Assembly: GCA_022799355.1 (NCBI GenBank)
Contig: JAAWOG010000023.1
Span: 1-48,195 of the forward strand
DNA from: Lachnospiraceae bacterium
GTDB lineage: Bacteria; Bacillota; Clostridia; Lachnospirales; Lachnospiraceae
DNA length: 48,195 nucleotides
Direction of reading: 5' to 3'
Part shown: in pieces, positions 17,571-32,928 of the stretch
Layout: each line of letters starts with the position of its first letter
Position numbering within the stretch: the stretch's first letter is position 1
Program-made: the position numbers and the translations under genes
The notes under the pieces: generated by a model
Told to the model about the DNA's origin: nothing
What the model saw: the letters and a program-made list of their open reading frames with translations, nothing else
The model's database searches: none

Positions 17571-17583
17571 TAAGGGTGATGAG

Positions 17584-18429
17584 ATGTTAGTAAATATGAA
17601 TGATATGCTGCTTCCGGCTAAGGAAGGCGGTTATGGCATTGGATTTTTTAATGCGGTGAATGTGGAGATGGCGCGTGCCGTGATAGAGACGGCGGAAGAA
17701 CTCCATGCTCCGGTGATGGTGGGGACGGCGGAGGTGCTTTTGCCGGTGACAAGACTGGAGAGGGTGGCAGAATATCTGATTCCGATGGCAAAAAAGGCGA
17801 GTGTGCCCGTGTGTGTTCACTATGATCACGGTCTGACCTTTGAGAGATGTATGGAGGCTTTGAAGCTTGGTTTTACATCCGTTATGTATGACTGCTCCAC
17901 CGCTTCTTATGAGGAGAATGTGGGAAAGGTTGCGGAGATGGTGAAGATCTGTCATGCTATGGGCGTGACGGTGGAGGGAGAACTTGGTCATGTAGGCGAT
18001 AATGCGGGAGCGGGTAAGCTGGAAAATCCGGACGATTATTTCACGGATCCCGATACTGCCGCAGATTTTGTCGAAAAAACAGGGGTGGATGCCTTGGCTG
18101 TCGCGGTGGGCAATGCCCATGGGGATTATGCCTTTCCGCCTAAGCTGGATTTTGAGCGGATTCGGGTGATCTCTGAAAAAACAGGTCTTCCGCTGGTGCT
18201 TCACGGCGGCTCCGGCCTTTCGGATCATGACTTCCGGGAGGCGGTAAAACTTGGAGTGTCAAAAGTGAATATCTTCACGGATATCGATAAAGCCGGCAAA
18301 CGGGGAATAGAAGCCGGCATCGCGGCGGGAGAGAAGTCCATGACGGGGCTGATCCCACATGAGATCGCGGAGATGAAGAAGGTTGTAAAAGAAAAGATTC
18401 TGCTGTTCGGATCTGCGGACAGAGTGTAG
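17584..18429 (+). CDS. Class II (zinc) ketose-bisphosphate aldolase
   Basis: A 281-residue class II aldolase of the FbaA/GatY/KbaY type. Zinc ligands and neighbours are visible: CVHYDHGLTFE (catalytic Asp, His), TVEGELGHVG (Glu), VGNAHGDY (His) and LVLHGGSGLSD (His). The C-terminal VSKVNIFTDI binds the substrate phosphate in relatives. It cleaves a ketose 1,6-bisphosphate or similar to dihydroxyacetone phosphate and an aldehyde. It forms a two-gene unit with the PfkB kinase, so it probably acts on that kinase's product (inference). Confidence 0.88.
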   Translation: MLVNMNDMLLPAKEGGYGIGFFNAVNVEMARAVIETAEELHAPVMVGTAEVLLPVTRLERVAEYLIPMAKKASVPVCVHYDHGLTFERCMEALKLGFTSVMYDCSTASYEENVGKVAEMVKICHAMGVTVEGELGHVGDNAGAGKLENPDDYFTDPDTAADFVEKTGVDALAVAVGNAHGDYAFPPKLDFERIRVISEKTGLPLVLHGGSGLSDHDFREAVKLGVSKVNIFTDIDKAGKRGIEAGIAAGEKSMTGLIPHEIAEMKKVVKEKILLFGSADRV

Positions 18430-18496: not shown

Positions 18497-19786
18497 ATGA
18501 CGGATATGGACCATATGGGACTGGAAAGGAGCCATCCTGACAGGAGGGCGGAAAAAGAATATTCTGATCGAACAGATAAGGATATGAACGGAGGAAGCGG
18601 TGCGGATAAAAAGCCGCTTTCTTTATATGTCCATATTCCGTTTTGCGTCAGGAAGTGTGATTATTGCGATTTTCTTTCGGCGCCGGCTTCGGAAGAGGTG
18701 AGAGAGAATTATGTCAATCTTCTTTGCAGGGAGATGGAGAGGGAGGCTGCTCTTTATCCGGATTATCGGGTGGAGACAGTCTTTTTTGGCGGCGGTACGC
18801 CGACGGTTTTAAAGCCGGAGCAGCTTGAAAAACTGCTGTGCAAATTAAAGGAATGCTTTTTCATCCGGGAGGATGCGGCCAAAATGCCGGGATCAGAGAT
18901 CACGCTGGAATGCAATCCGGGTACGGTGGGCGGTGAGGAACTGAAAAAATTGCGGGAGGCAGGTTTTAACAGGCTCAGCATCGGTGCGCAGTCCATGCGG
19001 AATGAGGAACTTGAAAGGCTCGGACGGATACATACCCGGGAGGATTTTCAGGAGACATTCCGCCTGGCCAGGGAAGCCGGGTTTCGGAATCTGAACGTGG
19101 ATCTGATGTCGGCTTTGCCCGGGCAGAGTGTGGAGAGTTATGTAAACTCACTGCGGGAGGTGGTATCTCTCCATCCGGAGCATATTTCGGCCTACAGCCT
19201 GATTGTGGAGGAGGGGACGCCTTTTTATGAGCGGTACGGCGAAGCGGATGCCGGAAGGCGGCGCGACGGGGAGGATAAAGATCATTTGCTGCCTTCCGAG
19301 GAGGAAGAGAGGCGGATGTATGAAGTAACCCGGGAGATACTTGAGGGAAGCGGGTATCACCGCTATGAAATTTCCAATTATGCCCTGCCCGGTTGTGAAT
19401 GCCGCCATAATATCACTTACTGGAGAAGAGGAGATTATCTGGGGCTTGGGCTGGGAGCGGCGTCTTTGATGGGGGAGCGCCGTTTTACTAAGAGCAGGGA
19501 TTTGAGAGAATATGAGAAAATGCCGGAAGAAAAGGAAAACATGCAGCATTTGACCACCCGGGAACAGATGGAAGAGTTTATGTTTTTGGGGCTTCGGCTT
19601 ATGAGCGGGGTATCCCGCAGAGAATTTTTTGATTATTTTCATGTCCCGATAGAGAAGATATACGGGGAGGTTCTGAAAAAGCTGGAGCAGCAAAAACTCC
19701 TTGCCCGGCAGGGCGATGGGATTTACCTGACGAAACGGGGGATTGACGTCAGCAATGTGGTGCTGGCGGAGTTTTTGCTGTCATAG
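18497..19786 (+). CDS. hemW: Radical SAM heme chaperone HemW
   Basis: A 429-residue protein. The radical SAM cluster motif is Cys50-x3-Cys54-x2-Cys57 (IPFCVRKCDYCDF), followed by FFGGGTPT and LSIGAQS; the HemW C-terminal domain ends the protein. HemW inserts heme into respiratory or other hemoproteins; such proteins were long labelled oxygen-independent coproporphyrinogen oxidase. The start is uncertain: ATG 18467, ATG 18497 or ATG 18584 (MNGGSG) are all in frame. With either of the first two it has a charged extension of about 40 or more residues before the usual start KPLSLYVHIPFC. Confidence 0.9.
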   Translation: MTDMDHMGLERSHPDRRAEKEYSDRTDKDMNGGSGADKKPLSLYVHIPFCVRKCDYCDFLSAPASEEVRENYVNLLCREMEREAALYPDYRVETVFFGGGTPTVLKPEQLEKLLCKLKECFFIREDAAKMPGSEITLECNPGTVGGEELKKLREAGFNRLSIGAQSMRNEELERLGRIHTREDFQETFRLAREAGFRNLNVDLMSALPGQSVESYVNSLREVVSLHPEHISAYSLIVEEGTPFYERYGEADAGRRRDGEDKDHLLPSEEEERRMYEVTREILEGSGYHRYEISNYALPGCECRHNITYWRRGDYLGLGLGAASLMGERRFTKSRDLREYEKMPEEKENMQHLTTREQMEEFMFLGLRLMSGVSRREFFDYFHVPIEKIYGEVLKKLEQQKLLARQGDGIYLTKRGIDVSNVVLAEFLLS

Positions 19787-19805
19787 CCGATTTCCCGATT
19801 ATTTT

Positions 19806-20711
19806 TCAGGAGTAATATAAATTGACAATAATATCCTGTGCATGATTCCCGAATCCGTTTCCGAACAGCGTAACGCCGCCTTTATTCGGCGTATTTTCCG
19901 CTACCTGAATTCTGAAATCAATAAACTGACAATTTTCTATATGCAAATCCGATAAGGAGACTCCGGAGAGGGGCTCTCCGTCTATCGTACAGTTTTTTCC
20001 CGAAATACGCAGATGTTTTAACAGACCATATTGGCTCAGATCATCGCTCCACCAGTCCGGCGTATAAAAACCGCGAACGTCCGAAAAATTGCCGGGACAG
20101 GTCCATGTTCCGACGGGGATGTGGTTGAGCAGAAAGGTGATATCGCTGGGCCAGACATTGTTGGAGTATGGAAATTCCGAGGCAATTTCCATACTGATCT
20201 CGATCATTTGAAGTTTTTGTTCTTCGGAAAGAGAATTGGGAATCTTATATTCTATGAATCCGTCGGAAAACCATAAAAGGGACGCATTGACGCGGTCCGG
20301 CTGAACAAAGGAAAGAGGATCATCCAGTTTCCCGACAATCCCGGTGCCGGTAGCCAGGCCGCAGGTCGGTATCACTTCAAAGTTTGTGTAATGTCCCAGC
20401 GGAATCTGGGCAGTATATTTAGAGAGGGAACGATAAATTTTCGCAGGGAAGGTAATGGCTATCGTATCTACGGCCAGATGCGGAATTTTCTGCACACCTG
20501 ACTTGCCGGGGCGTTTTTTGCAGTGGATAAGCCTGGTTTCCTCCAGTTTCTGGATATGTTTCGTGATAATGGCTTTACTCAGCCCCAGGGCTTCGGATAA
20601 CTCAGTGATATTGTAATCCCGCTCGGATATCAGCTGCAGGATCCGGAGTCTTACATTGCTTGCGAGCGCTTCGTAAACGGGTAATGAATTTTGGGTGATG
20701 TCGAGCTGCAT
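19806..20711 (-). CDS. ArsR-like winged-helix regulator, probable repressor of the GH116 operon
   Basis: A 301-residue protein. Residues 8-75 are an ArsR-type winged helix (VYEALASNVRLRILQLI, then NITELSEALGLSKAIITKHIQKLEE). The remaining ~220 residues are a beta-rich region (SLLWFSDGFIEYKIP, VGTWTCPGNFSDVRGFYTPDWW) with no Cys metal site. Such C-terminal parts may sense a small ligand such as a sugar (inference). A GGGAGG site precedes ATG 20711. It is divergent from the ABC/GH operon, and the space between them is packed with AGTTAA repeats, pointing to local control. Confidence 0.8.
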   Translation of the reverse strand: MQLDITQNSLPVYEALASNVRLRILQLISERDYNITELSEALGLSKAIITKHIQKLEETRLIHCKKRPGKSGVQKIPHLAVDTIAITFPAKIYRSLSKYTAQIPLGHYTNFEVIPTCGLATGTGIVGKLDDPLSFVQPDRVNASLLWFSDGFIEYKIPNSLSEEQKLQMIEISMEIASEFPYSNNVWPSDITFLLNHIPVGTWTCPGNFSDVRGFYTPDWWSDDLSQYGLLKHLRISGKNCTIDGEPLSGVSLSDLHIENCQFIDFRIQVAENTPNKGGVTLFGNGFGNHAQDIIVNLYYS

Positions 20712-20756
20712 GAAAAACCTCCCTGTAAAGTAACTGCATTAAGTATAACATAAAGA

Positions 20757-20937
20757 AGTTAATTGTAAAGTGAATTGTACAAAAAACAGCATGGTGAAGA
20801 ATTGGAAAAAATCACCTGATTTTATGTATTATGTGATAAGAATACGATGAAATAAACAAACTGTGCTTTTGTCACTAAATAGTTAATTTAAAAGTTAATC
20901 GTTTATAAAAAAGTTAAAATTAATGTTGACAAGTTAA
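20757..20937. repeat. Array of AGTTAA boxes between regulator and transporter genes
   Basis: AGTTAA occurs at 20757, 20881, 20893, 20912 and 20932, and once more within the palindrome at 21041-21066. The copy at 20932-20937 lies inside the spacer of the predicted operon promoter, which suits repression by a bound regulator. Confidence 0.6.
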
Positions 20938-20952
20938 AAAGGCTGTTATAAT
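20926..20952 (+). promoter_or_regulatory. Predicted promoter of the ABC/GH116 operon
   Basis: A perfect TTGACA (20926-20931) and a perfect TATAAT (20947-20952) with a 15-base spacer, shorter than the ideal 17. TAATAT at 20949-20954 would give 17. The leader to the first gene is about 130 bases. Confidence 0.65.
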
Positions 20953-20968
20953 ATAAAAATATCAAAAG

Positions 20969-21015
20969 AATTTGCACAAAAAAGAAAAAATAGAAATAAA
21001 TATTTTGTGCAAATT
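20969..21015 (+). promoter_or_regulatory. 13-bp inverted repeat in the operon leader
   Basis: AATTTGCACAAAA (20969-20981) is perfectly complementary to TTTTGTGCAAATT (21003-21015). The 21-base interval is A-rich, and T residues follow the second arm. It begins about 10 bases after the likely transcription start. It could be an RNA hairpin with attenuator character or a second protein-binding site. Confidence 0.5.
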
Positions 21016-21040
21016 TTTATGAGTGAAATTCAAAGGACGA

Positions 21041-21066
21041 TTTGATTAACTAAAAAGTTAATCAAA
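21041..21066 (+). promoter_or_regulatory. Perfect palindromic operator-like site before the binding-protein gene
   Basis: TTTGATTAACT (21041-21051) and AGTTAATCAAA (21056-21066) are exact inverted repeats around AAAA. Each arm contains the AGTTAA box found across this region. It ends 21 bases before the first start codon. Confidence 0.65.
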
Positions 21067-21087
21067 CACTCAAAGGAGGATGAAACC

Positions 21088-22440
21088 ATGATGAGAAAGA
21101 ATGTAGGAAAAGCAGGATTATCGTTATGTATGGCGGCAATGCTGGCGGCGGGAGCGCTGACAGGCTGCGGCGGAAATGATGGCGCGGCCGGGGAAGGGCA
21201 GACAACTGAAAATGCTGCGGCGGAAAGTACGGCGGATAGTGCGGGCGATGCGGCAGAAGAGAACGCAGAGGCGGCTTCCGGGGAAGAAATCGAATTCTGG
21301 AACTTTTTTACCGGGCCGGACGGAGATAATATGAAGGTTATAGTGGACGGATTTAATGCGACAAATCCGGCATATCGTATTAAAAATGTGACGATGGCGT
21401 CGGGAGATCTGTATACAAAAATCCCAACGGTTGTAAATTCGGGGGAAGGAATCCCGGATCTGACGATCGTGGATGTGGCAAGGATTCCGATGTTCTATGA
21501 CCAGGGGCTGCTTGAATCCATGGCGTCGGTTATGGAAAATGCGCCGGAAGTTAAAAAAGAGAATTATAATGCGCTGGTATGGGATACCGGTACTTTCGAT
21601 GGCGAGCAGTACGCGGTGCCCCTGGATATGGGCGTGATCGGCGTGGCATACAACAAGGACCTGGTAGAGCAGTATGCGCCGGGCGTTCTGGATGATAATC
21701 TGATTACGATCGATGAGATCAAGGAGATCATTCCGAAGGCATCGGCGGACGGTATTGTGACGATACCCGTATCTTTCTTCGGATATGAGCAGGCACTGGC
21801 GTTGGCAAAACAGGAGGGCGGAGACCTCTTTACGGATGAAAATACGCCGAATATCAACAGCCCTGAATTTACAAAGGCGGTACGGACCTTGAAGGACATC
21901 GTTGACCTCGGCGGGTGCAGCGAAGAGGGAGAAGAAAACCTGCAGTTGTTTATGGCAGGTGAAGCGATCTTCTGCCCGGACGGTGTGTGGGACGCCAATG
22001 CGCTGAACGCAATTGAAGGGCTGAACTGGGGGATTACAAACTCCATCTGTTACAGCACGGATACGTTCTATAATTTCTCCAACTCCAATCAGTTTGTTAT
22101 GCTGAAAAATGACAAAAGGAGTGATGAGAAGGAGAAAGTGATCGCTGACTTTTTGGAGTATGTACGTGTAAACGCTCTGGAGTGGGCGCGTTCGGGACAG
22201 GTACCTGCCAGCAGCGCGGCGGATGATGAGGCGGAATATGTGGCTATGAACCAGCATTTCTTTGTTTCCGCACCGGAGATGGAGGAGTCCATTCGGTTTA
22301 ATAATGATAAGTATTCCGGTTATGCGAACGACGCGATCGGCAAGGTGTTCGGAGATATCCTGTTTGGCCATATTGAACTGGAAGAAGGGCTTGCGCAGGC
22401 GCAGAAACAGGCTGAGGACAATATCGCGCAGAATAATTAA
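21088..22440 (+). CDS. Sugar ABC transporter substrate-binding lipoprotein
   Basis: A 450-residue extracellular binding protein. The lipobox is Leu-Thr-Gly-Cys27 (AAGALTGCGGND), followed by a ~40-residue Ala/Glu-rich linker and a family 1 sugar-binding fold: IEFWNFFTGPDGDNMKVIVDGFNATNP, VPLDMGVIGVAYNKDL, GEAIFCPDGVWDAN. It captures the substrate outside and hands it to the two permeases encoded next. AAAGGAGG precedes the start; the ATG at 21091 is also possible (MM start). It is the first gene of the operon. Confidence 0.93.
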   Translation: MMRKNVGKAGLSLCMAAMLAAGALTGCGGNDGAAGEGQTTENAAAESTADSAGDAAEENAEAASGEEIEFWNFFTGPDGDNMKVIVDGFNATNPAYRIKNVTMASGDLYTKIPTVVNSGEGIPDLTIVDVARIPMFYDQGLLESMASVMENAPEVKKENYNALVWDTGTFDGEQYAVPLDMGVIGVAYNKDLVEQYAPGVLDDNLITIDEIKEIIPKASADGIVTIPVSFFGYEQALALAKQEGGDLFTDENTPNINSPEFTKAVRTLKDIVDLGGCSEEGEENLQLFMAGEAIFCPDGVWDANALNAIEGLNWGITNSICYSTDTFYNFSNSNQFVMLKNDKRSDEKEKVIADFLEYVRVNALEWARSGQVPASSAADDEAEYVAMNQHFFVSAPEMEESIRFNNDKYSGYANDAIGKVFGDILFGHIELEEGLAQAQKQAEDNIAQNN

Positions 22441-22500
22441 GTTTTATATGTCCGCCGGGCGGATAAAAGAGCCGGCGTGAAGTAGAACGGAGGTAAAGAT

Positions 22501-23412
22501 ATGGGCGCTGACAACAAAAAGTTGAACAGGCGGCCGGGGAAGACCAGGGGTAAGCTGTTACCCTTGGCCTTCATTGGTCCCCATCTGATTCTGTTTGCCG
22601 TGTTTGTATTGTTTCCTATATTATATGGGCTGGCAATTTCCTTTACAAAATGGGATCTGATCGGAACGCCTGAATGGGTAGGCCTTGGCAACTATAAAGA
22701 GATATTATGCAATGCGGATTCCACGTATCACAAAGATTTTATGGCAGGGCTGAAAAATACCGTGATGTTTGTGGTGTTGAATGTGCCGGTCAGTATTCTG
22801 GTACCCCTGGGATTTGCCCTTCTTCTGCATGTGAAAGCAAAGGGGAGTAAGGTGTTTCAGCCAATCTATTACCTTCCGACGCTGTTTTCCATTTCGGCGG
22901 TGGGCATTATGTGGATGCAGATGCTGAACAAACGTTTCGGTCTGGTCAGCATGTTCGGGGTAAAAAAGGCACTGACCATTACCAATCCCTGGATGTGGAT
23001 TATGCTGATCGTCATGTCTGTCTGGTGGACCATGGGAACCAATATGGTGATCTATCAGGCGGCGCTCGGCGGCGTCTCAAAGGATCTGTATGAGTCGGCG
23101 GCGCTGGACGGGGCGAACGGATTTCAGAGGATATGGTATATCGCACTTCCTTCGATACGCTTTCAGCTCTTATATACGCTGGTTATCACCGTGGCGGGAA
23201 GTTTTAATGTATATGGACAGCCCTTGATGCTGACACAGCAGGGAACCGGAGGAGCGCCCAAGATCACGGTGCTGATTATGACCATCACCAATCTGGCATT
23301 CGGTTCGGGACAGTCCATTGCGGGGATGGCATCGGCGATGGCTGTTATTTTGGGAGCCTTTATTTTAGTGGTATCCCTGCTCCAGTTCAGGCTTACGACA
23401 AAAGAAGACTAG
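22501..23412 (+). CDS. Sugar ABC transporter permease (MalF/UgpA type)
   Basis: A 303-residue inner-membrane permease with about six transmembrane helices. The N-terminal LAFIGPHLILFAVFVLFPILYGLAIS is typical, and the ATPase-coupling EAA loop reads ESAALDGANGFQRIWYIALPSI. It pairs with the next permease to form the channel. An ACGGAGG site lies before the ATG. The operon encodes no ATP-binding subunit. Confidence 0.93.
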   Translation: MGADNKKLNRRPGKTRGKLLPLAFIGPHLILFAVFVLFPILYGLAISFTKWDLIGTPEWVGLGNYKEILCNADSTYHKDFMAGLKNTVMFVVLNVPVSILVPLGFALLLHVKAKGSKVFQPIYYLPTLFSISAVGIMWMQMLNKRFGLVSMFGVKKALTITNPWMWIMLIVMSVWWTMGTNMVIYQAALGGVSKDLYESAALDGANGFQRIWYIALPSIRFQLLYTLVITVAGSFNVYGQPLMLTQQGTGGAPKITVLIMTITNLAFGSGQSIAGMASAMAVILGAFILVVSLLQFRLTTKED

Positions 23413-23423
23413 GAGGATGCGTG

Positions 23424-24266
23424 ATGAGACGAAAGGAAAAGGCGGCGAAAGCAATTGTTTTTCTTGTGACGGGTGTGACGGCTCTTTTATGGATCATACC
23501 GATCGTCTGGGCGTTTTTTACCTCTTTTAAGACGGAGACGGAGATCAAGACGAAGGGGTTTGGATTTTTGCCGAAAGAATGGACGTTTGAAAATTATATC
23601 AATATTTTCGGGAATACGGATAATGCGCCTATTATCAGATGGTTTGGAAACTCCATGATCATTGCCGTCACCGTGGCGGTCTTGTCGGTGGCGCTCGTAT
23701 CGGTCACGGCTTACGGCTATTCCAGGCTGAACTTTAAATACCGGGATACTTTGTTTTATATGCTGATGGGGATTTCCCTGTTTCCGAATATTATCAATAT
23801 CATCCCGCTGTATCAGATGATGACATGGCTGAAGTGGGTGAATACCAATATGGCAATGATCGTGCCGGGGCTGGGAGCCGTGACAAATATTTTTCTGGTG
23901 CGGCAGTTTTCCCTGGGCATACCAAAGGAATTTGACGAGGCGGCGAAGATCGACGGGGCCAGGGAGTTTGCGGTTTTCGCGCGGGTTATCCTGCCGATGT
24001 TAAAGCCGGTTTTGACGGTGGTGGCGCTGTTTTCCTTTACCGGTTCCTGGAATGATTTCCTCTGGCCTACGATTGTGTTTAACGATGTGGAGAAGATGCC
24101 GCTGACGGCGGGGCTTAAGCTTTTAAACGGGGCGTATGGAGGCTTTCAGCTTGGTCCCATTCTGGCGGCGGCCTGTATAGCGATCTTCCCGACTTTTGTA
24201 TTGTATTTATTTGCTCAGAAATATTTTCTGCAGTCCATGTCTTTGAGTTCCGGCGTAAAGGGATAA
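23424..24266 (+). CDS. Sugar ABC transporter permease (MalG/UgpE type)
   Basis: A 280-residue permease with six predicted membrane helices. It shows the family's FFTSFKTETEI after helix 1 and the EAA loop DEAAKIDGAREFAVFARVILPMLKP. The start is ATG 23424, with AGGAGG 7 bases upstream overlapping the end of the previous gene; a GTG three bases earlier is less well placed. The C-terminus (LFAQKYFLQSMSLSSGVKG) is typical of MalG-type sugar importers. Confidence 0.93.
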   Translation: MRRKEKAAKAIVFLVTGVTALLWIIPIVWAFFTSFKTETEIKTKGFGFLPKEWTFENYINIFGNTDNAPIIRWFGNSMIIAVTVAVLSVALVSVTAYGYSRLNFKYRDTLFYMLMGISLFPNIINIIPLYQMMTWLKWVNTNMAMIVPGLGAVTNIFLVRQFSLGIPKEFDEAAKIDGAREFAVFARVILPMLKPVLTVVALFSFTGSWNDFLWPTIVFNDVEKMPLTAGLKLLNGAYGGFQLGPILAAACIAIFPTFVLYLFAQKYFLQSMSLSSGVKG

Positions 24267-24323
24267 GGGTAGATTTATTCTGGGGCCGGATGATTATGGG
24301 CAGGAAAGAAAAGGAGAAAAACA

Positions 24324-26939
24324 ATGGCTCTTTATAAAGAGGAAAAAAGCAGGCTGATTTCCTTTCCCCTGGGCGGGATCGGCAGCGGCAGCGTGGGACT
24401 TTCGGGCAACGGGGCATTTGTGGACTGGGAGATCTTTAACCGTCCCTTTAAGGGTTCCCGCAACGGCTTCACACATCTGCTGGTGAAAGCGGAGGACGCC
24501 CGGGGGGTGCGGGATGTCAGGGTACTGCAGGGAGATTTTCAGGGCAGTGCGGAGGGCGGAGAGACCGTCAATATCAAACGGGGCAACGGTGGTTTTGGTT
24601 ATGGTTTCGGAAGCTACCGGGGAACCATGGCGGGAGTGCCCCATTTTGAGGAATGTGTTTTTGAGGGTGAATTTCCTTTTGCGAGGCTTTATTTTGCGGA
24701 CGGAAATTTTCCCGGGAAAGTGGAACTTTTGGCGTTTAATCCGTTTATTCCGCTGAATGATAAGGATTCTTCGATGCCTGCGGCATTTTATGAAGTTGCT
24801 TTTGAAAATACAACGGAGGAACGTCTGACATATCGGGCATATTTTTCCCTGAATAATCTGCTTCCCTACGGCAGTACGGAGAACAGGTATTTTTCGGAAG
24901 AGGGGGTTCGCGGGCTTGTTATGTCCTCGGGACGCCTGAAAGAGGGGGATCTTCTGTATGGAGGCTTTTGTGTGGCGACGGATGCCTCTGAAGGGGATTA
25001 CCAGGAATACTGGTACCGGGCGGACTGGTTTGATCCGCTGCAGACTTTCTGGAATGAGATAAATGAGCCGGGAGATCTGAAAAACCGGGTTTATACAGAG
25101 GATACAAGAAAGGAAAATCCTGTGGATCTGGACGGGGAAGATATGGGAAGCCTCGGGGCGAAGCTCGATCTGAAACCGGGGGAGAGAAAGACGCTGCGGT
25201 TTATGTTAAGCTGGTACTTTCCAAACTGCGAAAATTACTGGAATCCGGAAAAGGATAAAAAGGAGCAGAAGAGGTGGAAGAATTATTATGCGTCCCTGTT
25301 TGAGGATGCGAAAGCCTGTGCATTATACGGTTTGAAAGAGTGGAAGAGGCTGTATGCGGAGACTAAGCTTTTTAAGGAGGCGCTGTATCAGACCAGCCTT
25401 CCGCCGAAAGCGCTGGAAGCGGTGTCTGCGAATCTGTCCATTCTGAAGTCGGCTGCCTGCCTCAGGCTGGAGGACGGATCGTTTTATGGGTTTGAGGGCT
25501 GCGCACCGACGGAAGGCTGTTGTGAGGGTTCCTGTACCCATGTGTGGAACTATGCCTATGCGCTGCCCTATCTGTTCCCGGCGCTGGAGCGTTCCATGCG
25601 GGATCTGGAGTATCGCTTCAGCCAGAGAGAGGACGGTTCCATGGCGTTCCGTCTGATGCTGCCTCCGGGAAGGGAGCGCTACGGCTTCAGAGCCTGTGTG
25701 GACGGACATATGGGAGGCGTGATCAAGACATATCGGGAATTTCTGCTCTCCGGCGATATGGCATGGCTGGAGGAAAAATGGGAAGGCGTAAAAAAGGCAA
25801 TTGAGTTCGCCTGGGCAGAGACAAATGAGGATAAATGGGATGCGGATAAAGACGGCGTACTGGAAGGGCGGCAGCATCATACGCTGGATATGGAACTCTT
25901 TGGACCGAGCTCCTGGCTGAACGGGTTTTATCAGGCGGCGCTGAAGGCGGGGGCCAGGATGGCTCTGATCCTGGGGCATGAGAAGGAGGCGGAGGAATAC
26001 CGGGAGCTGTTTGAAAAAGGGAAGGCCTGGGTGGATGAGCATCTCTTTAACGGCAGCTATTATCAGCAGGAGGTGGATCTTTGCGATAAAGGGCTTTTGG
26101 AGAAGTATCGTGCAGGGGAGACGTTGGACGGTGCGGATACGGTAGAGGCTTACTGGAATGAGGAGGCGGGGGAGATCAAATATCAGATCGGAAACGGCTC
26201 TTCCATAGACCAGGTGATCGGCCAGTGGCACGCCAATCTGATCGGACTTGGGGATATATTTGACAGGGAAAAGGTGAAAAAGGCGCTGTGTTCCATTTAT
26301 CTGTATAATTTTAAAGAGCCCATCAGAAACTGCTTTAATGCCGCGAGGATCTATTGTATGAACGGGGAGAGCGGTACGGTGATATGCGCCTGGCCGAAGG
26401 GGGCGGTGATGCCGAAGATCCCGGTCACATATGCCAATGAAGTGTTCTGCGGCATGGAATACCAGGCTGCATCCCATATGATACAGGAGGACATGGCGGA
26501 GGAGGGATTCAGGCTTATCGAAGCGGTGAGGGAGCGGTTCGACGGCAGCAGGAGAAACCCCTTTAATGAGTTTGAATGCGGCAGCAATTATGCCAGGTCG
26601 CTGGCAAGCTATGCGCTGATCCCGAGTGTCAGCGGTTACACCTGCGATTTATACAAAAAGATTCTGCGGTTTGCGCCGAAAGTTTGTCGTGATCATTTCA
26701 CCGGGTTTTTCAGCAATGCGCTGGGCTGGGGATTATACCGGCAAAATACGGAAGGATATTCTATAGAAGTTCTCTATGGGGAACAGCGGATCAGGGCGGT
26801 TTATCTGGCGGATTTTCAGAAGCAGCAGGTAAAAGCGGCAAAGAACGGGGAAGCGCTGAGAGCGAAGAAGAGGGAGGAGGGAATCTTTTTTGAGACGGAA
26901 GTGATATTGAAAGCAGGAGATGTCTTATTTCTGACATGA
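24324..26939 (+). CDS. GH116-like glycoside hydrolase (GBA2/DUF608 type), cytosolic
   Basis: An 871-residue protein with no signal peptide. The N-terminal domain begins ISFPLGGIGSGSVGLSGNGAFVDWEIFNRP, the mark of GH116. The (alpha/alpha)6 C-terminal part follows from about residue 350. By alignment in my head to GBA2 and bacterial GH116 beta-glucosidase, the nucleophile region is near Glu391 (GFEG) and the acid/base is likely Asp522 (HHTLDME). Cys-rich EGCAPTEGCCEGSCTHVWNY lies between. GH116 enzymes are retaining beta-glucosidases, xylosidases or N-acetylglucosaminidases. With the importer upstream, it likely cleaves an imported glycoside; the substrate is not known. Confidence 0.82.
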   Translation: MALYKEEKSRLISFPLGGIGSGSVGLSGNGAFVDWEIFNRPFKGSRNGFTHLLVKAEDARGVRDVRVLQGDFQGSAEGGETVNIKRGNGGFGYGFGSYRGTMAGVPHFEECVFEGEFPFARLYFADGNFPGKVELLAFNPFIPLNDKDSSMPAAFYEVAFENTTEERLTYRAYFSLNNLLPYGSTENRYFSEEGVRGLVMSSGRLKEGDLLYGGFCVATDASEGDYQEYWYRADWFDPLQTFWNEINEPGDLKNRVYTEDTRKENPVDLDGEDMGSLGAKLDLKPGERKTLRFMLSWYFPNCENYWNPEKDKKEQKRWKNYYASLFEDAKACALYGLKEWKRLYAETKLFKEALYQTSLPPKALEAVSANLSILKSAACLRLEDGSFYGFEGCAPTEGCCEGSCTHVWNYAYALPYLFPALERSMRDLEYRFSQREDGSMAFRLMLPPGRERYGFRACVDGHMGGVIKTYREFLLSGDMAWLEEKWEGVKKAIEFAWAETNEDKWDADKDGVLEGRQHHTLDMELFGPSSWLNGFYQAALKAGARMALILGHEKEAEEYRELFEKGKAWVDEHLFNGSYYQQEVDLCDKGLLEKYRAGETLDGADTVEAYWNEEAGEIKYQIGNGSSIDQVIGQWHANLIGLGDIFDREKVKKALCSIYLYNFKEPIRNCFNAARIYCMNGESGTVICAWPKGAVMPKIPVTYANEVFCGMEYQAASHMIQEDMAEEGFRLIEAVRERFDGSRRNPFNEFECGSNYARSLASYALIPSVSGYTCDLYKKILRFAPKVCRDHFTGFFSNALGWGLYRQNTEGYSIEVLYGEQRIRAVYLADFQKQQVKAAKNGEALRAKKREEGIFFETEVILKAGDVLFLT

Positions 26940-27005
26940 TTTAAAAATAAAGGAAACGAGGAGAAAAGGTTGAATAAATTCTCTGATGAGTAATTTAGTT
27001 CAACA

Positions 27006-27085
27006 AACTGAACAAGTTCAGTTAGAATTTGTGCCGAAGCGTCACAAATTCCATTGATCGCAGAGCAGAATTTGATATTCTGCTC
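27006..27085. other. Three consecutive perfect hairpins in the 184-base gap between glycosidase genes
   Basis: AACTGAAC/GTTCAGTT (27006-27013, 27016-27023), GAATTTGTG/CACAAATTC (27025-27033, 27043-27051) and GAGCAGAAT/ATTCTGCTC (27063-27071, 27077-27085) are all perfect. None has a T-run, so simple termination is unlikely. RNA processing, mRNA stability or a partial read-through signal are possible. The rest of the gap 26940-27123 has no gene. Confidence 0.6.
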
Positions 27086-27123
27086 GCGGTCTCAGCACAA
27101 AGCGCTTCAGAATGGAGGAAATA

Positions 27124-29121
27124 ATGAAAAATGAAAGAGTGCCAAGTGTCCCATTGATTACCTGTGATCCTTATTTTTCGGTGTGGTCGCCGGCGGATAC
27201 GCTTTTTGGAGCGGATACCTGCAGTTGGACGGGTGAGAGAAAAGCAATGGACGGTATTGTGGTGATAGACGGAGAAAGCTACCGGTTTATGGGGCTTTCG
27301 GGAGGAGAGAGAAATATGGAGCAGGCAGGGCTCCATATTACGCCAACCAGCTCGTCCTATCTGTTCCGGGGCGGAAATATCAGGCTGAGGATAACCTTTT
27401 TAACGCCTCTTTTGCTGACGGAACCTGAACTGATATCAAGGCCCTGCAGTTACATAGCGTATGATATTTCTTCGGAGGACGGAGAGGAACATCAGGTGTG
27501 CATGGAGCTGTCCATGGATGAAGGACACTGCTATGACGGGATAAAGCAGAAGGGGATGATCGGCGGCGTTCACCGGATGAAGGGGTATGCGGCGGCATGG
27601 ATGGGACAGGAGAAGCAGGCGCCCCTTTCCCACAGCGGTGATGATATAACGATTGACTGGGGATATCTCTATCTGGCTGCCTCCGATCAGGAGGGAGTGG
27701 AACTGAAGTTTGAAAAAAAAGAAGGACGTTACCGTGTGATGGGTAAGATATCCCTTCTGGCGGCGGCAGAGGTAAAATCGGGCTGTCTGGTGGCGGCTTA
27801 TGACGATGTGGCGTCCATTATGTATTTCGGAGATATTCGGAAAGGATACTGGGCGAAAGACGGAAAGCATATTCCGGAAGCCATCGGGGAGGCACTTTCG
27901 CAGAAAGAGGAACTCTTTGAGAGGTGCAAAAGGTTTGATGAAGAACTGACGGAGCGGACGGAGCGCGTGGGGGGAGAAGAGTACGCCCGGATCTGTGCGC
28001 TGGCGTATCGGCAGACGGTGGCTGCCCATAAACTTATCGAGGATAAGGAAGGAAACCTTGTCTTTTTATCGAAGGAGTGCCTTTCTAACGGCTGTATCGG
28101 CACGGTTGATATCAGTTATCCCTCCATGCCTCTCTATCTTTTATATAATGCCGAACTGGTAAAGGGAATGCTGCGCCCCGTGCTTGCATTTTCCCGGATG
28201 CCGGTGTGGCACTATGATTTTGCGCCCCATGATGTGGGGAGATATCCCTATGTGACAGGACAGGTCTACGGCGTGAAGGAAGAATATGGTTTTCGGGAGC
28301 CTCATAAGGGAAAAGTATTTCCGATGTATTATATCTATCCGGAAGGCTCCGACATATATTGTTTGGAGCAGCAGATGCCGGTGGAAGAGAGCGGCAATAT
28401 GCTGATCATGGCGGCGGCGCTCTCAAAGACGGAGGGAAATGCCGATTTTGTGAAGGAGGCGATGCCGCTTTTCAAAAAGTGGACGGATTATCTTATGGAA
28501 TACGGGGAAGATCCGGGGAATCAGCTCTGTACGGATGATTTCGCAGGACATCTGGCTCATAATGCGAATCTTGCGGTGAAGGCGATCATGGGAATCTGGT
28601 CTTACGGGTTTCTGCTTGAGATGAACGGGGAAAAAGAGAAGGCGGCGTGCTATAAAAAGAAGGCGGCCCAGCTTGCGAAGGAATGGGAGAAAAAAGCGGA
28701 TGCGGGGGAATATACGGTGCTTGCCTTCGGAAATAAGGAGAGCTGGAGCCTGAAATATAATCTGATCTGGGATATCCTGTTTGAGAGTCGTCTGTTTTCG
28801 GCAGAGTTATTTGAAAAAGAACTGGAATGGTATCTGAAAAAGCAGAACAGATACGGGGTGCCGCTGAGCAGCCGTGAGACCTATACGAAGTCGGACTGGA
28901 TACTCTGGGTGGCTTCCTTTGCGGAGACGAAAGAGAAAATGCGGAAGCTGATAGCGCCGCTTATAACATATCTGGAGGAGACGCCGAGCCGTGTTCCCTT
29001 TTCGGACTGGTATGACAGTTGTTCGGCGAAGGAGATGTCCTTCCAGAACAGGACGGTGCAGGGCGGGCTGTTTATGCCGCTTTTAAAGGAGAAGTTTCTT
29101 AAGAAGGAAGAAGCCGTATGA
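27124..29121 (+). CDS. DUF4965/DUF5127 (glutaminase-A-like) protein, cytosolic
   Basis: A 665-residue protein of the family labelled glutaminase A after a fungal enzyme. The N-terminal VPSVPLITCDPYFSVWSPADTLFGADTCSWTG is diagnostic. The C-terminal half is an (alpha/alpha)6-type barrel with PYVTGQVYGVKEEYGF, LCTDDFAGHLAHNANLAVKAI and NRYGVPLSSRETYTKSDWILW. No signal peptide. The start is ATG 27124 with GGAGG just upstream; an in-frame ATG at 27112 precedes the ribosome site. The barrel resembles glycosidases, so a sugar-directed role fits this operon better than glutamine hydrolysis (inference). Confidence 0.8.
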   Translation: MKNERVPSVPLITCDPYFSVWSPADTLFGADTCSWTGERKAMDGIVVIDGESYRFMGLSGGERNMEQAGLHITPTSSSYLFRGGNIRLRITFLTPLLLTEPELISRPCSYIAYDISSEDGEEHQVCMELSMDEGHCYDGIKQKGMIGGVHRMKGYAAAWMGQEKQAPLSHSGDDITIDWGYLYLAASDQEGVELKFEKKEGRYRVMGKISLLAAAEVKSGCLVAAYDDVASIMYFGDIRKGYWAKDGKHIPEAIGEALSQKEELFERCKRFDEELTERTERVGGEEYARICALAYRQTVAAHKLIEDKEGNLVFLSKECLSNGCIGTVDISYPSMPLYLLYNAELVKGMLRPVLAFSRMPVWHYDFAPHDVGRYPYVTGQVYGVKEEYGFREPHKGKVFPMYYIYPEGSDIYCLEQQMPVEESGNMLIMAAALSKTEGNADFVKEAMPLFKKWTDYLMEYGEDPGNQLCTDDFAGHLAHNANLAVKAIMGIWSYGFLLEMNGEKEKAACYKKKAAQLAKEWEKKADAGEYTVLAFGNKESWSLKYNLIWDILFESRLFSAELFEKELEWYLKKQNRYGVPLSSRETYTKSDWILWVASFAETKEKMRKLIAPLITYLEETPSRVPFSDWYDSCSAKEMSFQNRTVQGGLFMPLLKEKFLKKEEAV

Positions 29122-31562
29122 GAGAAGGAAAGGAAAAAAACAGGCAGAAAATATATACCGGAAAACATGCTGCGCTGCGGGCGCTTTTAGGGGGGATCGG
29201 CACCGGAAATATTTCCCTGGATGCCTGCGGCAGTTTCCGGGATTTCGAGATATTTAACCATCCCGATAAAGGGCTGAAGCTTCCCTGTTACTTTTTTGCG
29301 CTCCGGACGAAACAGGAAGGCAGAGATGCGGATGCCAGAATTTTGGAGGCGGTCCCGGACAAAGCCAATCGGAAACCAATGTACCATGCGGGGGAGCTGA
29401 TGGGGCTGCCCCGGTTTTCGGAAAGCCGGTTTCAGTGCAGATATCCGTTTTATGAGATCGAGCTTTTAGAGAAGGATTTTCCCTTTCGGGTAAAATGCAG
29501 GGCATACACGCCGTTTATTCCGCTGGATGCGGACAGTTCGGGAATGCCTTATTATGAGATGCGTTATGAGATCACGAACTGCTCCGATGAGGAGGCGGAG
29601 GTTTCCGTGGCGGGGAGCGTATTGAACGCGGCAGGATTTATGGAATATGACGGATTTGACAGGCTGGAGGAAAAGGGGAGACGGATCAATGAGAGAAGAA
29701 GGGCGGATGGACTGAGCGGTGTATTTCTGCACGGCGAAGGAATAGAGAACTCGGATATCACCTTTGGCAGTATGGCGCTGGCAGCGCCCGGGGAGGTATC
29801 CTGTAAGACTCACTGGCAGTACGGTGGCTGGTGGGACGGGGCGGAAGAGTTCTGGCGGGATTTTCTGGAGGATGGCGTGCTGGAAGAGGCGGGAGAAGAA
29901 AAAGAGCAGACCAGGCAGGAGAGATGTGTGGCTTCTTTGGCGGTAAAGCAGCGTATAGCGCCCGGTGAAACAGGAGTCTTTACATTTTACACGGCATGGC
30001 ATTTTCCCAACAGATATGGCTGGCACCCGGACGGGCATGTGACAAAGGAGGAAGAGGGGGAAAAGGAGAAGAGGGTTTTTCGGAATTACTATGCGGTTTT
30101 ATGGAAGGATGCCTGGGAAGTAATTCTTGACGCTCATAAAAGAGGGGAATATCTGGAGGAGAAGAGCAAAGCTTTTTCGGAGGCGCTTTACGGCTCAACG
30201 GTGGGGGAAGATGTGCTGGAGGCGCTTGTTTCCTCCATCACAGTGCTTCGCTCCTGTACCTGTTTCCGAATAGAGGACGGTACATTTTTTGGCTGGGAGG
30301 GCTGTTTTGAAAAGAGCGGAAGCTGCGCGGGAAATTGTACCCATGTATGGAATTATGCTCAGACGGCAGCGTTTCTCTTTCCTGAACTGGAGCGGGATAT
30401 GCGGCGGACGGAGTTTTTGACGGAGACGGACAGGGAGGGGCGTATGGCCTTTCGGGCGAAGCGGAAACTGGAAGGAAGTCCTTTTGAGATGTACCCGGCG
30501 GCGGACGGGCAGCTTGGCTGCGTGATGCGGGTATACCGGGAGTGGAAGCTGTCAGGAAAGGATGATTTTTTAAAGGAACTCTGGCAGAAAGTGAAGAAGG
30601 TTATGGAGTATGCCTGCCGGATCTGGGACCAGGACGGGGACGGTGTGATGGAAGCCATGCAGCACAATACCTACGACATAGAGTTTTACGGGAATACATC
30701 CATGACAAATTCCGTATTTTACGGCGCGCTGCGTGCCGCGGCAAAGATGGCGGAGTATCTGGGAGAGATGGAGACGGCAAAGGGCTGGCTGCTCAGAGCC
30801 GAAAAGGGCAGTGAAAAGATGGAGAGGCTTTTGTGGAACGGAGAATACTACAGGCAGAGGATCAGCAGGGAGGAGATGGAGGCGTATGACTACCAGTATG
30901 GCGACGGATGTCTTTCCGACCAGTTGTTCGGACAGCAGCTTGCTCATCTTTACGGACTGGGATATCTTTTTGACAAAGAGCATGTAAAAAAGGCAATGTC
31001 CTCCATCTATCGTTATAATTTTAAGAGATCGCTGAAGGGGCAAAGAAGCGTGCAGCGCTGTTATGCCATGGCGGAGGAGGCGGGGCTTGTGCTTTGTTCC
31101 TGGCCGCGGGGAGGCAGGCCGAAGCAGCCTTTTGTCTATGCGGATGAGGTGTGGACGGGGATCGAGGCGCAGGTGGCGGTCCATCTGATCTACGAGGGGA
31201 TGGTACAGGAAGCCCTGGAACTGGTAAAGGCGGTGCGGGAACGTTATGACGGGATTGTCCGCAGTCCTTTTGATGAGGTGGAATGCGGGTATCACTATGT
31301 GCGGTCCATGGCGTCCTGGGGACTTTTGATCGCTCTGAGCGGGTATCGCTGTGATATGGTAAAAAGGGAAATCTCCTTTTCTCCTGCGGTTTCACAGGAT
31401 GAGTTCCGGTGCTTTTATTCCAATGGGGAGAGCTGGGGCACTTATCATCAATGGAGGGAGAACGGCGGGATCAGGTGGGAAGTTACGCCCTGTTTCGGCA
31501 ATTTGGAGGGCGTCAGGGTGAACGGAAAGCCTCTTCCGGTAAACTTGGACTTACGGGAATAG
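29118..31562 (+). CDS. Second GH116-like glycoside hydrolase, cytosolic
   Basis: An 814-residue paralogue of the first GH116 gene. The N-terminal domain starts ALLGGIGTGNISLDACGSFRDFEIFNHPDKG. Glu394 (GWEG) and Asp520 (HNTYDIEFYG) sit where the nucleophile and acid/base of GH116 are expected, and the Cys motif EGCFEKSGSCAGNCTHVWNY is kept. No signal peptide. The ATG overlaps the stop of the previous gene (ATGA), so translation is coupled. Divergence from the first copy suggests a different linkage or chain position on the same imported glycoside. Confidence 0.82.
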   Translation: MREGKEKNRQKIYTGKHAALRALLGGIGTGNISLDACGSFRDFEIFNHPDKGLKLPCYFFALRTKQEGRDADARILEAVPDKANRKPMYHAGELMGLPRFSESRFQCRYPFYEIELLEKDFPFRVKCRAYTPFIPLDADSSGMPYYEMRYEITNCSDEEAEVSVAGSVLNAAGFMEYDGFDRLEEKGRRINERRRADGLSGVFLHGEGIENSDITFGSMALAAPGEVSCKTHWQYGGWWDGAEEFWRDFLEDGVLEEAGEEKEQTRQERCVASLAVKQRIAPGETGVFTFYTAWHFPNRYGWHPDGHVTKEEEGEKEKRVFRNYYAVLWKDAWEVILDAHKRGEYLEEKSKAFSEALYGSTVGEDVLEALVSSITVLRSCTCFRIEDGTFFGWEGCFEKSGSCAGNCTHVWNYAQTAAFLFPELERDMRRTEFLTETDREGRMAFRAKRKLEGSPFEMYPAADGQLGCVMRVYREWKLSGKDDFLKELWQKVKKVMEYACRIWDQDGDGVMEAMQHNTYDIEFYGNTSMTNSVFYGALRAAAKMAEYLGEMETAKGWLLRAEKGSEKMERLLWNGEYYRQRISREEMEAYDYQYGDGCLSDQLFGQQLAHLYGLGYLFDKEHVKKAMSSIYRYNFKRSLKGQRSVQRCYAMAEEAGLVLCSWPRGGRPKQPFVYADEVWTGIEAQVAVHLIYEGMVQEALELVKAVRERYDGIVRSPFDEVECGYHYVRSMASWGLLIALSGYRCDMVKREISFSPAVSQDEFRCFYSNGESWGTYHQWRENGGIRWEVTPCFGNLEGVRVNGKPLPVNLDLRE

Positions 31563-31632
31563 ACAGCTATGATGTCTTCCTTTTTCCGCATTTCAGATTC
31601 TCCTTATCCTGATATTAAATCATCCACATTAT

Positions 31633-32928
31633 TTATTTTTCAGGAATCTGCGGTGCAAGAAGGAAATCATAAATATTTACGGTCAGGATACCATAATCAT
31701 CATAACAGGGCGGTACAATATCTTTTGTGATAACAATCTTTTTAAAAGAATCATCAATCTTTCTGAATGGTCTGATTTCCTGCGTGCGTTTCGCTTCATC
31801 AGGCAATGAATACGCCGACTGGATATAATATCTGGAAGAACCAAGATTGCATACGAAATCTACTTCCAATTGTTTTCGGCTCACCTTACCGTCCTGATCC
31901 TTCCCGGCAATGGTCACAACACCGACATCCACGTTGTAGCCACGCATACGCAATTCGTTGTAGATGACATTCTCCATAGAATGCGTCTGTTCAAACTGGC
32001 GGAAGTTAATTCTGGCATTACGAAGTCCAAGATCAGAGAAATAATATTTCTTTGGCGTTTCAATATATGCTTTTCCCCTGATGTCATATCTCTGTGCCGA
32101 TTCGATTAAGAAAGAATCCTCAAAACAGTCCAGATATTTTTTAATTGTCTTGGATGTTATTTTAGACCTCTTTACGGTTCTAAAAGTGTTTTTTAACTTT
32201 TCAGGATTTGTCAGAGAGCCAATGGCAGAGGAAAGGATATTCAGCAGATCTTCCAGTTCTCCAATATTCCTGATGCGGTTACGTCTGAAAATATCCCGAA
32301 TATATATTTCACTAAACAAATTCTGCAATGCCGCAGCTTTATCGCCCGCACTTTCCCGAAGAACAACCGGCGGAATCCCACCATAAAGCATATATTCGGA
32401 CAGTCCCATATATTTATCGCCTTTATAGACAGACATAAATTCCGCAAAACTCAGCGGATACATATGAACTTCATCGCCACGTCCGGCGAACTCCGTCACA
32501 ATATCTTTAGATAAGAATTTAGCATTGCTTCCGGTTACGAAAACATCCATATTGTCTTTACGCAGATAACCGTTCAGCACAGATTCAAAGCAGTCCATCA
32601 GCTGCACTTCATCCAGAAGCAAATAGTACATACCATCCCCGGTAATCTCAGAATGGATATATGCCATGAATTTCTCCGGATCAACTCCACGTTTTTCTTT
32701 TTCCATTTTGATCAGGCTTTCACCGATCAAATACAAGTCATCTGCCGAGTCGAACGCAAAACGAATAATGTGGTCAGCCTCAACACCGGATTCCAGCAAA
32801 TGATTATAGAATATTTTATTCAGCAGATAGGACTTTCCGCACCTGCGAATACCGGTAATCACTTTAATCAGTCCATTGTTTTTTCTTTTAACCAATTTAT
32901 CCAGGTAAAAATCTCTGCGAATCTCCAT
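31633..32928 (-). CDS. AAA_14/DUF4143 family ATPase
   Basis: A 431-residue P-loop ATPase. Walker A is GIRRCGKSYLL, Walker B YLLLDEVQLMD, then the sensor motif VFVTGSNAKFLS; the C-terminal DUF4143 part ends with a PD-(D/E)xK-like strand region (QLEVDFVCNLGSSRYYIQSAYS). Such proteins are widespread in bacteria, often in variable regions, with unknown roles. An AAGGAGA site precedes the ATG. It is convergent with the second GH116 gene, with no clear terminator in the 70 bases between. Codon use is more AT-rich than the operon beside it, which fits separate acquisition. Confidence 0.85.
   Translation of the reverse strand: MEIRRDFYLDKLVKRKNNGLIKVITGIRRCGKSYLLNKIFYNHLLESGVEADHIIRFAFDSADDLYLIGESLIKMEKEKRGVDPEKFMAYIHSEITGDGMYYLLLDEVQLMDCFESVLNGYLRKDNMDVFVTGSNAKFLSKDIVTEFAGRGDEVHMYPLSFAEFMSVYKGDKYMGLSEYMLYGGIPPVVLRESAGDKAAALQNLFSEIYIRDIFRRNRIRNIGELEDLLNILSSAIGSLTNPEKLKNTFRTVKRSKITSKTIKKYLDCFEDSFLIESAQRYDIRGKAYIETPKKYYFSDLGLRNARINFRQFEQTHSMENVIYNELRMRGYNVDVGVVTIAGKDQDGKVSRKQLEVDFVCNLGSSRYYIQSAYSLPDEAKRTQEIRPFRKIDDSFKKIVITKDIVPPCYDDYGILTVNIYDFLLAPQIPEK

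Follow-up and report, generated by a model that had tools for sequence, protein, structure and literature searches.

A seven-gene Lachnospiraceae cassette predicted to import and digest a furanose-containing oligosaccharide

The closest characterised relative of the enzymes discussed here is ExoMA2 of Microbacterium arabinogalactanolyticum (PDB 8ic6/8ic7), a two-domain glycoside hydrolase of family GH116. ExoMA2 is reported to be an exo-beta-D-arabinofuranosidase with E431 as nucleophile and D557 as acid/base; its sugar recognition differs from that of GH116 glucosidases chiefly at R483 and H446 (TxGH116 His507 and Asp452), and it is strictly specific, with no action on p-nitrophenyl-beta-glucose (pNP-beta-glucose) (PMC10509167). 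GH116 enzymes of this kind occur in the D-arabinan loci of Microbacterium and, as a putative enzyme, of Dysgonomonas gadei, and the Microbacterium locus combines a putative ABC importer with cytoplasmic exo-enzymes (PMC10509167). We analysed a 48,195-nucleotide stretch of contig JAAWOG010000023.1 from a gut-type Lachnospiraceae bacterium, referred to as the window, which holds a seven-gene cassette: a divergent regulator (REG), a lipoprotein solute-binding protein (SBP), two permeases (PERM1 and PERM2), two GH116 proteins (GH116a and GH116b) and a protein of the GtaA/DUF4965 family (GTA). The cassette resembles the ExoMA2 system in its two-domain GH116 proteins with the same catalytic and O2-recognition residues, in the lack of signal sequences and in having an importer in the locus. 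Unlike that system it has two GH116 lineages and GTA, no GH172 or GH183 gene, and a Clostridia host. With moderate confidence, we propose that the cassette is induced by its substrate and serves the use of a small oligosaccharide that contains furanose and most likely ends in a beta-D-arabinofuranose cap.

Both GH116 proteins scored over the cut-offs for Glyco_hydr_116N and DUF608, and they are the only DUF608 matches in the whole genome. The best match among solved structures was ExoMA2 in each case (E 5.2e-195 for GH116b and 1.9e-108 for GH116a, at 43% and 34% identity), while the best glucosylceramidase chains gave 1.7e-29 and 6.7e-22. ExoMA2 chain numbering appears to equal the published number plus 4, an offset chosen because all four named residues then fall on fitting residues; on this numbering the equivalents of E431, D557, H446 and R483 were identical in 32 of 32 aligned rows, ExoMA2 and both window proteins included. 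The initial annotation had pointed to a beta-glucoside, xyloside or N-acetylglucosaminide (GlcNAc) as substrate, from a list of GH116 activities that omitted the sub-group these proteins resemble, the beta-D-arabinofuranosidases described in 2023. A cassette for oligosaccharides of that type, with the GH116 proteins acting as in subfamilies 1 to 3, would agree with family membership and with the closeness of the clefts, given that a beta-D-arabinofuranosyl aziridine binds the beta-glucosidase TxGH116 covalently (PMC11375437). However, the similarity to ExoMA2 lies many orders of magnitude above that to any glucosidase, R483 and H446 are present instead of TxGH116 His507 and Asp452, and ExoMA2 is reported inactive on pNP-beta-glucose (PMC10509167). 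We therefore corrected this suggestion and consider such a substrate unlikely.

The initial annotation had also called for a phylogeny of the two GH116 copies. We built the tree from 32 rows, some of which differ in composition, with a midpoint root and no row from subfamilies 1 to 3. The clade of GH116b has 14 members and includes ExoMA2 (100/100); GH116a belongs to its sister clade, which has 16 members (100/99), and two divergent rows lie outside both. Since the two proteins belong to separate clades, they represent old lineages and not a recent duplication. We know of no assayed member of the GH116a clade. Nine positions were fixed differently between the clades (one exception allowed in each), among them ExoMA2 Y556, which is replaced by L beside the acid/base, and H761, which lies between E755 and R764 and is replaced by N. 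E755 and R764 stand as far apart as E777 and R786 of TxGH116, suggesting equivalence, and in TxGH116 these two residues are described as holding the C5 hydroxyl when an arabinofuranosyl probe is bound (PMC11375437). Fixed differences close to these positions imply that GH116a may differ in substrate. On these comparisons GH116b is most likely an exo-beta-D-arabinofuranosidase, and GH116a is likely a glycosidase for which a second furanosidase specificity is possible.

If GH116b is an exo-beta-D-arabinofuranosidase, genomes that carry its clade would be expected often to contain GH172, the family that supplies the alpha-specific counterpart. A GH172 match was present in all 12 genomes of the ExoMA2-like clade, in 3 of the 7 that have the GH116a clade alone and in none of the 30 that have neither (Fisher p 9e-11); inside the window's family the contrast was 5/5 versus 0/30 (p 3e-6), both values ignoring kinship among genomes that are not independent. 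The 12 genomes represent all ExoMA2-like clade rows of the tree except ExoMA2 itself and L051. The 7 include G051, assigned by best match, its gene being incomplete and outside the tree, and the 30 comparison genomes were hand-picked from the window's family, one of them (G099) having a weak match to the GH116b profile (E 6e-5) and another (G184) belonging to the window's own genus. Left out were G090, G409 and G443, with divergent GH116 proteins, other weak-match genomes and many unlisted genomes. As a control in the same genomes, GH127 gave 11/12 versus 14/30. Because it separates the groups far less, an abundance of glycosidases can explain part, not all, of the GH172 contrast.

Several observations weigh against beta-D-arabinofuranose as the sugar. 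The genomes that carry the clade are the larger ones (median 3.95 versus 3.1 Mb); a size-limited comparison kept the GH172 contrast (8/8 versus 0/9). To our knowledge only one GH116 subfamily-4 enzyme has been assayed, and ExoMA2 sits on a long branch of the tree. The four named residues cannot separate one furanoside from another, because they are invariant in all subfamily-4-like relatives compared. GH172 also includes fructofuranosidases: at the site of the ExoMA1 Asn that is said to exclude fructose, 7 of 20 loci had Asn, 8 had another residue (Gly, Ser, Cys, Asp or Ala), and the motif was missing from 5. Three Asn copies were in genomes with the ExoMA2-like clade (G341, G453 and G015), the remaining four in GH116a-only genomes (G051 twice, G339 and G362), and this spread lowered our confidence in arabinofuranose and raised that in another furanoside. 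One G015 GH172 gene has two GH32-domain genes as neighbours; in G110 and G133 the GH172 genes adjoin members of the same similarity cluster, themselves unannotated. The GH172 matches of G000 (the window genome), G549 and G133 stand in short frames (127, 85 and 175 aa). The window genome's own copy, the 127-aa frame, lies at the end of a contig, outside the cassette; it scores 75 bits against ExoMA1 and 48 bits against alphaFFase1 and has Gly at the Asn site (by eye). No GH116 or GtaA gene matched in the GH172 loci read, so the two families are linked by genome only. GH183 (DUF4185) endo-D-arabinanase gave 0 matches in G000, G549, G038 and G184; it was found in 1 of 49 genomes (G341), showing that the search was able to find the family. 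The cassette thus differs from the described D-arabinan loci in that its genome has no endo-D-arabinanase match and the cassette itself no GH172, isomerase or kinase gene. Because no endo-D-arabinanase was found we do not class it as a D-arabinan locus, although by its predicted functions it would work like the intracellular half of one.

An alternative is a cassette for another furanoside, be it fructofuranosyl, galactofuranosyl or a plant furanoside, with the ExoMA2-like clade of Clostridia shifted in specificity. The GH172 loci without Asn or without the motif, the GH32-domain neighbours and their homologues, and the positions near the active site at which the two GH116 clades consistently differ all agree with it, as does the low beta-galactosidase activity reported for a Streptomyces GtaA-like protein (PMC9668830). 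It is opposed by the retention of all four named ExoMA2 residues in GH116b and by the strict specificity attributed to ExoMA2 (PMC10509167), and we regard a shifted furanoside specificity as rather doubtful.

GTA has the domain combination that defines the GtaA family (PF16335), a six-hairpin domain with DUF4964 and DUF5127, and is 42-53% identical to 59 of 60 aligned relatives and 79% to the copy in L047, a locus in a metagenome-assembled genome (MAG) labelled [Clostridium] symbiosum. The GtaA-like proteins Phanerochaete Phchr2|3002168 and Streptomyces WP_074995790, for which DUF4964, DUF5127, DUF4965 and DUF1793 are listed (PMC9668830), share with it DUF4964, DUF5127 and the GtaA six-hairpin domain; unlike them GTA lacks a secretion signal and stands in an importer operon. 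The GTA sequence matched no solved structure up to E 1, and its family profile gave weak matches to GH116 structures only (E 0.003 and 0.015). Profile alignment of GTA with a GH116 set gave E 2.9e-4, and 4e-6 with roles swapped, these values being uncalibrated; smaller alignments gave weak matches (E 0.0046 and 0.16). E322, D333, T474, D475 and D476 are invariant in 61 aligned rows. In 10 of 12 hhalign runs T474-x-D476 was placed on the T-x-D motif that carries the GH116 acid/base, the stretch not being reported in the other 2. E322 stands 11 residues before D333, as TxGH116 E441 stands 11 before D452, and aligns 2-3 columns off the GH116 nucleophile, which makes its assignment the weaker one. 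E322 and D476 are our candidate catalytic residues.

The initial annotation had left room for GTA to be a genuine glutaminase. On that account GTA would be a true glutaminase or amidase, and the cassette would handle an amide-bearing glycoconjugate. The family name speaks for this, and the fungal glutaminase A is said to be a glutaminase. Against it are the placement of T474-x-D476 in those 10 runs and the glycosidase neighbours of GTA genes elsewhere (GH38 in 14 of 80 loci). Further evidence comes from one publication, in which HHpred linked a GtaA-like protein with both GH116 and GH52, and a glycosidase probe enriched the homologue from a fungus (PMC9668830). Sequence and published labelling together favour a likely glycosidase over a glutaminase, and we give the amide-cleaving account very little credence.

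The proposed beta-D-arabinofuranose cassette would operate as follows. REG would repress at the AGTTAA sites and the palindrome (Table 1) and release them when its C-terminal domain meets the sugar. SBP and the two permeases would import the oligosaccharide intact, powered by an ATPase whose gene lies outside the cassette. GH116b would remove a terminal beta-D-arabinofuranose by a retaining mechanism (nucleophile E394, acid/base D520), GH116a would cut a related but different linkage or sugar, and GTA would act on the remainder as a third exo-glycosidase. D-arabinose could then enter metabolism through an L-fucose-isomerase-type enzyme. L-fucose isomerase also acts on D-arabinose, and the window genome has the enzyme (FucI) on another contig, together with a rhamnulokinase-like FGGY kinase that scores below its cut-off. 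Import followed by cleavage inside the cell, as the initial annotation had it, fits this anatomy and the Microbacterium model. Its statement that no such pathway had been described holds for the exact set, of which we found no published description; for Microbacterium, however, an ABC importer has been proposed to work together with a cytoplasmic GH116 enzyme on arabino-oligosaccharides (PMC10509167). Judged from sequence, the food is likely an unusual bacterial sugar and not an ordinary plant glucoside. A more specific, tentative version is the scavenging of beta-D-arabinofuranose-capped hetero-oligosaccharides, with GTA a true exo-glycosidase and GH116a a second furanosidase specificity; pieces of actinobacterial arabinogalactan or lipoarabinomannan freed by other microbes are a possible source within that same tentative version. 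The beta-D-arabinofuranose proposal, if true, would place D-arabinofuranoside use in anaerobic Clostridia, on which we found no paper in a partly covered open-licence literature, and would tie a glutaminase-named protein family to sugar cleavage; the hetero-oligosaccharide version would assign a natural substrate to the 'glutaminase A' domain family. The cassette offers a clean test, with three enzymes, a regulator, a binding protein and a GH116a clade with named residues.

The distribution of the cassette was read from a scan of named genomes for the GTA family, of which the best 80 of 576 confirmed stretches were used, with at most 10 kb and often less on each side. L047 carries all seven genes in unchanged order and at the same slot, their proteins being 79-93% identical. 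Between the window and L047 the dN/dS ratio was 0.05-0.10 in all seven genes, values that are approximate because dS was 0.7-1.7. These ratios indicate that the seven genes are under purifying selection, and together with the gene order kept in a second species they point to more than chance. A GH116 match was found in 2 of the 80 loci, L047 and L051, the latter having GTA and a GH116b-like gene separated by 2.5 kb, in which open reading frames (ORFs) lie on the opposite strand; the flanking sequence of the other 78 held no match to either GH116 protein. Confinement to this genome, which would have refuted the initial annotation, is thus not the case, but the set is rare. Among 200 genomes of the window's family, its own included, GTA was present in 5 and GH116b matches in 10 (two only at E near 1e-4, some nearer GH116a), and at the level of the order the GH116b profile had hits in 32 of 392 genomes, many of them weak. 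Single-representative matches to other glycosidases in the 80 loci were GH38 in 14, one kind of GH2 in 4, GH3 in 4 (one weak), GH127 in 3, GH92 in 2 and GH76 in 2. The GH38 alpha-mannosidase matches lie within about 10 kb of GTA in L057, L062, L077 and 11 other loci.

G184 belongs to the same genus and lacks the cassette at this slot: its lepA, hemW and sigma-factor genes lie next to each other, and the genome gave no GTA, GH116b or GH172 match. The cassette is therefore a variable insert at the hemW/sigma slot. G038 has REG, SBP, PERM1, PERM2 and GH116a in order at 34-60% identity and, elsewhere, GH116b near a second GH116a; it gave no GTA match. From this arrangement the GH116a block and GTA look like modules combined differently. 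Taken together, the comparisons indicate that the cassette is intact, selected, rare and insertable, and of the import-and-digest type.

Regulator, importer and enzymes were confirmed as annotated by ORFs and Pfam, with all seven genes at the predicted coordinates and REG alone on the - strand (Table 1). The reported ATGA overlap is also present, shared by the GTA stop and the GH116b start, and recurs in L047. The SBP lipobox reads LTGC by eye. The N-termini of GH116a, GTA and GH116b have no hydrophobic stretch, as judged by eye and not by a signal-peptide program, in agreement with the earlier view that the enzymes lack signal peptides; by that reading they are cytoplasmic. Distant solved relatives of SBP are mostly sugar-binding proteins, none specific, and do not name its ligand. 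The cassette contains no ABC ATPase gene, for which reason we assume an ATPase from elsewhere.

Table 1. Features of the cassette and its regulatory region (window coordinates).
Feature	Position	Strand	Basis
REG, divergent regulator, ArsR-type winged helix and long C-terminal domain	19806..20711	-	Pfam HTH_5
AGTTAA direct repeats, four copies (20881, 20893, 20912, 20932)	20881..20937		motif search; last one inside promoter spacer
Promoter-like TTGACA-17-TAATAT for importer and enzymes	20926..20954	+	10/12 consensus matches
Palindrome TTTGATTAACT-4-AGTTAATCAAA, between promoter and SBP start	21041..21066		11-bp arms, 100% complementary
SBP, lipoprotein solute-binding protein, sugar-type ABC importer	21088..22440	+	Pfam SBP_bac_8/1
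PERM1, permease 1	22501..23412	+	Pfam BPD_transp_1
PERM2, permease 2	23421..24266	+	Pfam BPD_transp_1
GH116a, likely glycosidase, clade sister to ExoMA2 clade, 871 aa	24324..26939	+	Glyco_hydr_116N and DUF608; tree
Spacer GH116a-GTA, mostly repeated hairpin element	26940..27111		repeat search
GTA, GtaA-like predicted glycosidase, 669 aa	27112..29121	+	DUF4964, DUF5127 and GtaA_6_Hairpin (429 bits)
GH116b, predicted exo-beta-D-arabinofuranosidase, ExoMA2 clade, 814 aa	29118..31562	+	Glyco_hydr_116N and DUF608; tree

REG was described initially as ArsR-like. Its winged helix (residues about 20-62) scores over the Pfam HTH_5 cut-off, but the protein lies below the cut-offs of all 12 NCBIfam models it matched and is not placed among the curated ArsR/SmtB metalloregulators. 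Some 190 or more residues follow the winged helix; their C-terminal motifs are conserved in an alignment of 7 members, and this domain is probably ligand-binding. A REG homologue was present in 5 of the 80 GTA loci, L047 included. The 376-bp gap between REG and SBP holds 6 of the 10 AGTTAA copies on the window's + strand. Those at 20881, 20893 and 20912 are kept in L047 and the one in the promoter spacer is not, while for the copies at 20757 and 21056 GTTAAT is kept without the first A. Both promoter hexamers are kept in L047; the number of promoter-like sites carries little meaning, 3 being found versus 2.3 in shuffles. The palindrome keeps 10 bases of each arm in L047, and its half-sites stand in the opposite order to the pattern AGTTAA-4to8-TTAACT, which has 0 matches in the window. 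Both the AGTTAA repeats and the palindrome are probable operators on this evidence. The SBP leader also contains an inverted repeat at 20962-21022 (20-nt arms, 90% complementary, 21 nt between), partly kept in L047, which may form a hairpin in the RNA or serve as a further operator. No terminator-like sites were found at 20700-21100 or 31500-31700, and an Rfam scan of 19700-31700 returned nothing credible.

The 172-bp spacer between GH116a and GTA is mostly made of a repeated element, which leaves a single uninterrupted transcript uncertain. The hairpin element at 26960-27105 has five further long copies in the genome at 81-85% identity, three of them at contig ends. The part at 26990-27105 folds far better than shuffles (z -5.2) and has no Rfam match. 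The window copy contains an extra 18-bp piece, and the spacer in L047 is shorter and shows no such element by eye.

Other gene neighbourhoods were recorded alongside. The G038 block (L038 6263-9720) is followed by GH2 and by RpiB-like and MtnA-like sugar-phosphate isomerases, hinting at a pentose-phosphate route for the product. GH116a relatives in L167 (8715-15978) and L166 (3939-11314) precede a LacI-type regulator and a glycyl radical enzyme with its activase. The enzyme and the activase were annotated in L167; the L166 genes were recognised by similarity cluster. L115 (2327-12010, Paenibacillus thalictri) carries an L-fucose-isomerase-type gene, 59% identical to the window genome's FucI, and an FGGY kinase gene upstream of a REG homologue and GTA. 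Two neighbours of the cassette were considered as parts of it and rejected, both being missing at the corresponding place in L047 and G184: an AAA_14/DUF4143 ATPase (31633-32928, between GH116b and the sigma-factor gene) and a PfkB-type kinase with a class II aldolase (16440-18429, between lepA and hemW). The latter pair is another variable insert in the neighbourhood.

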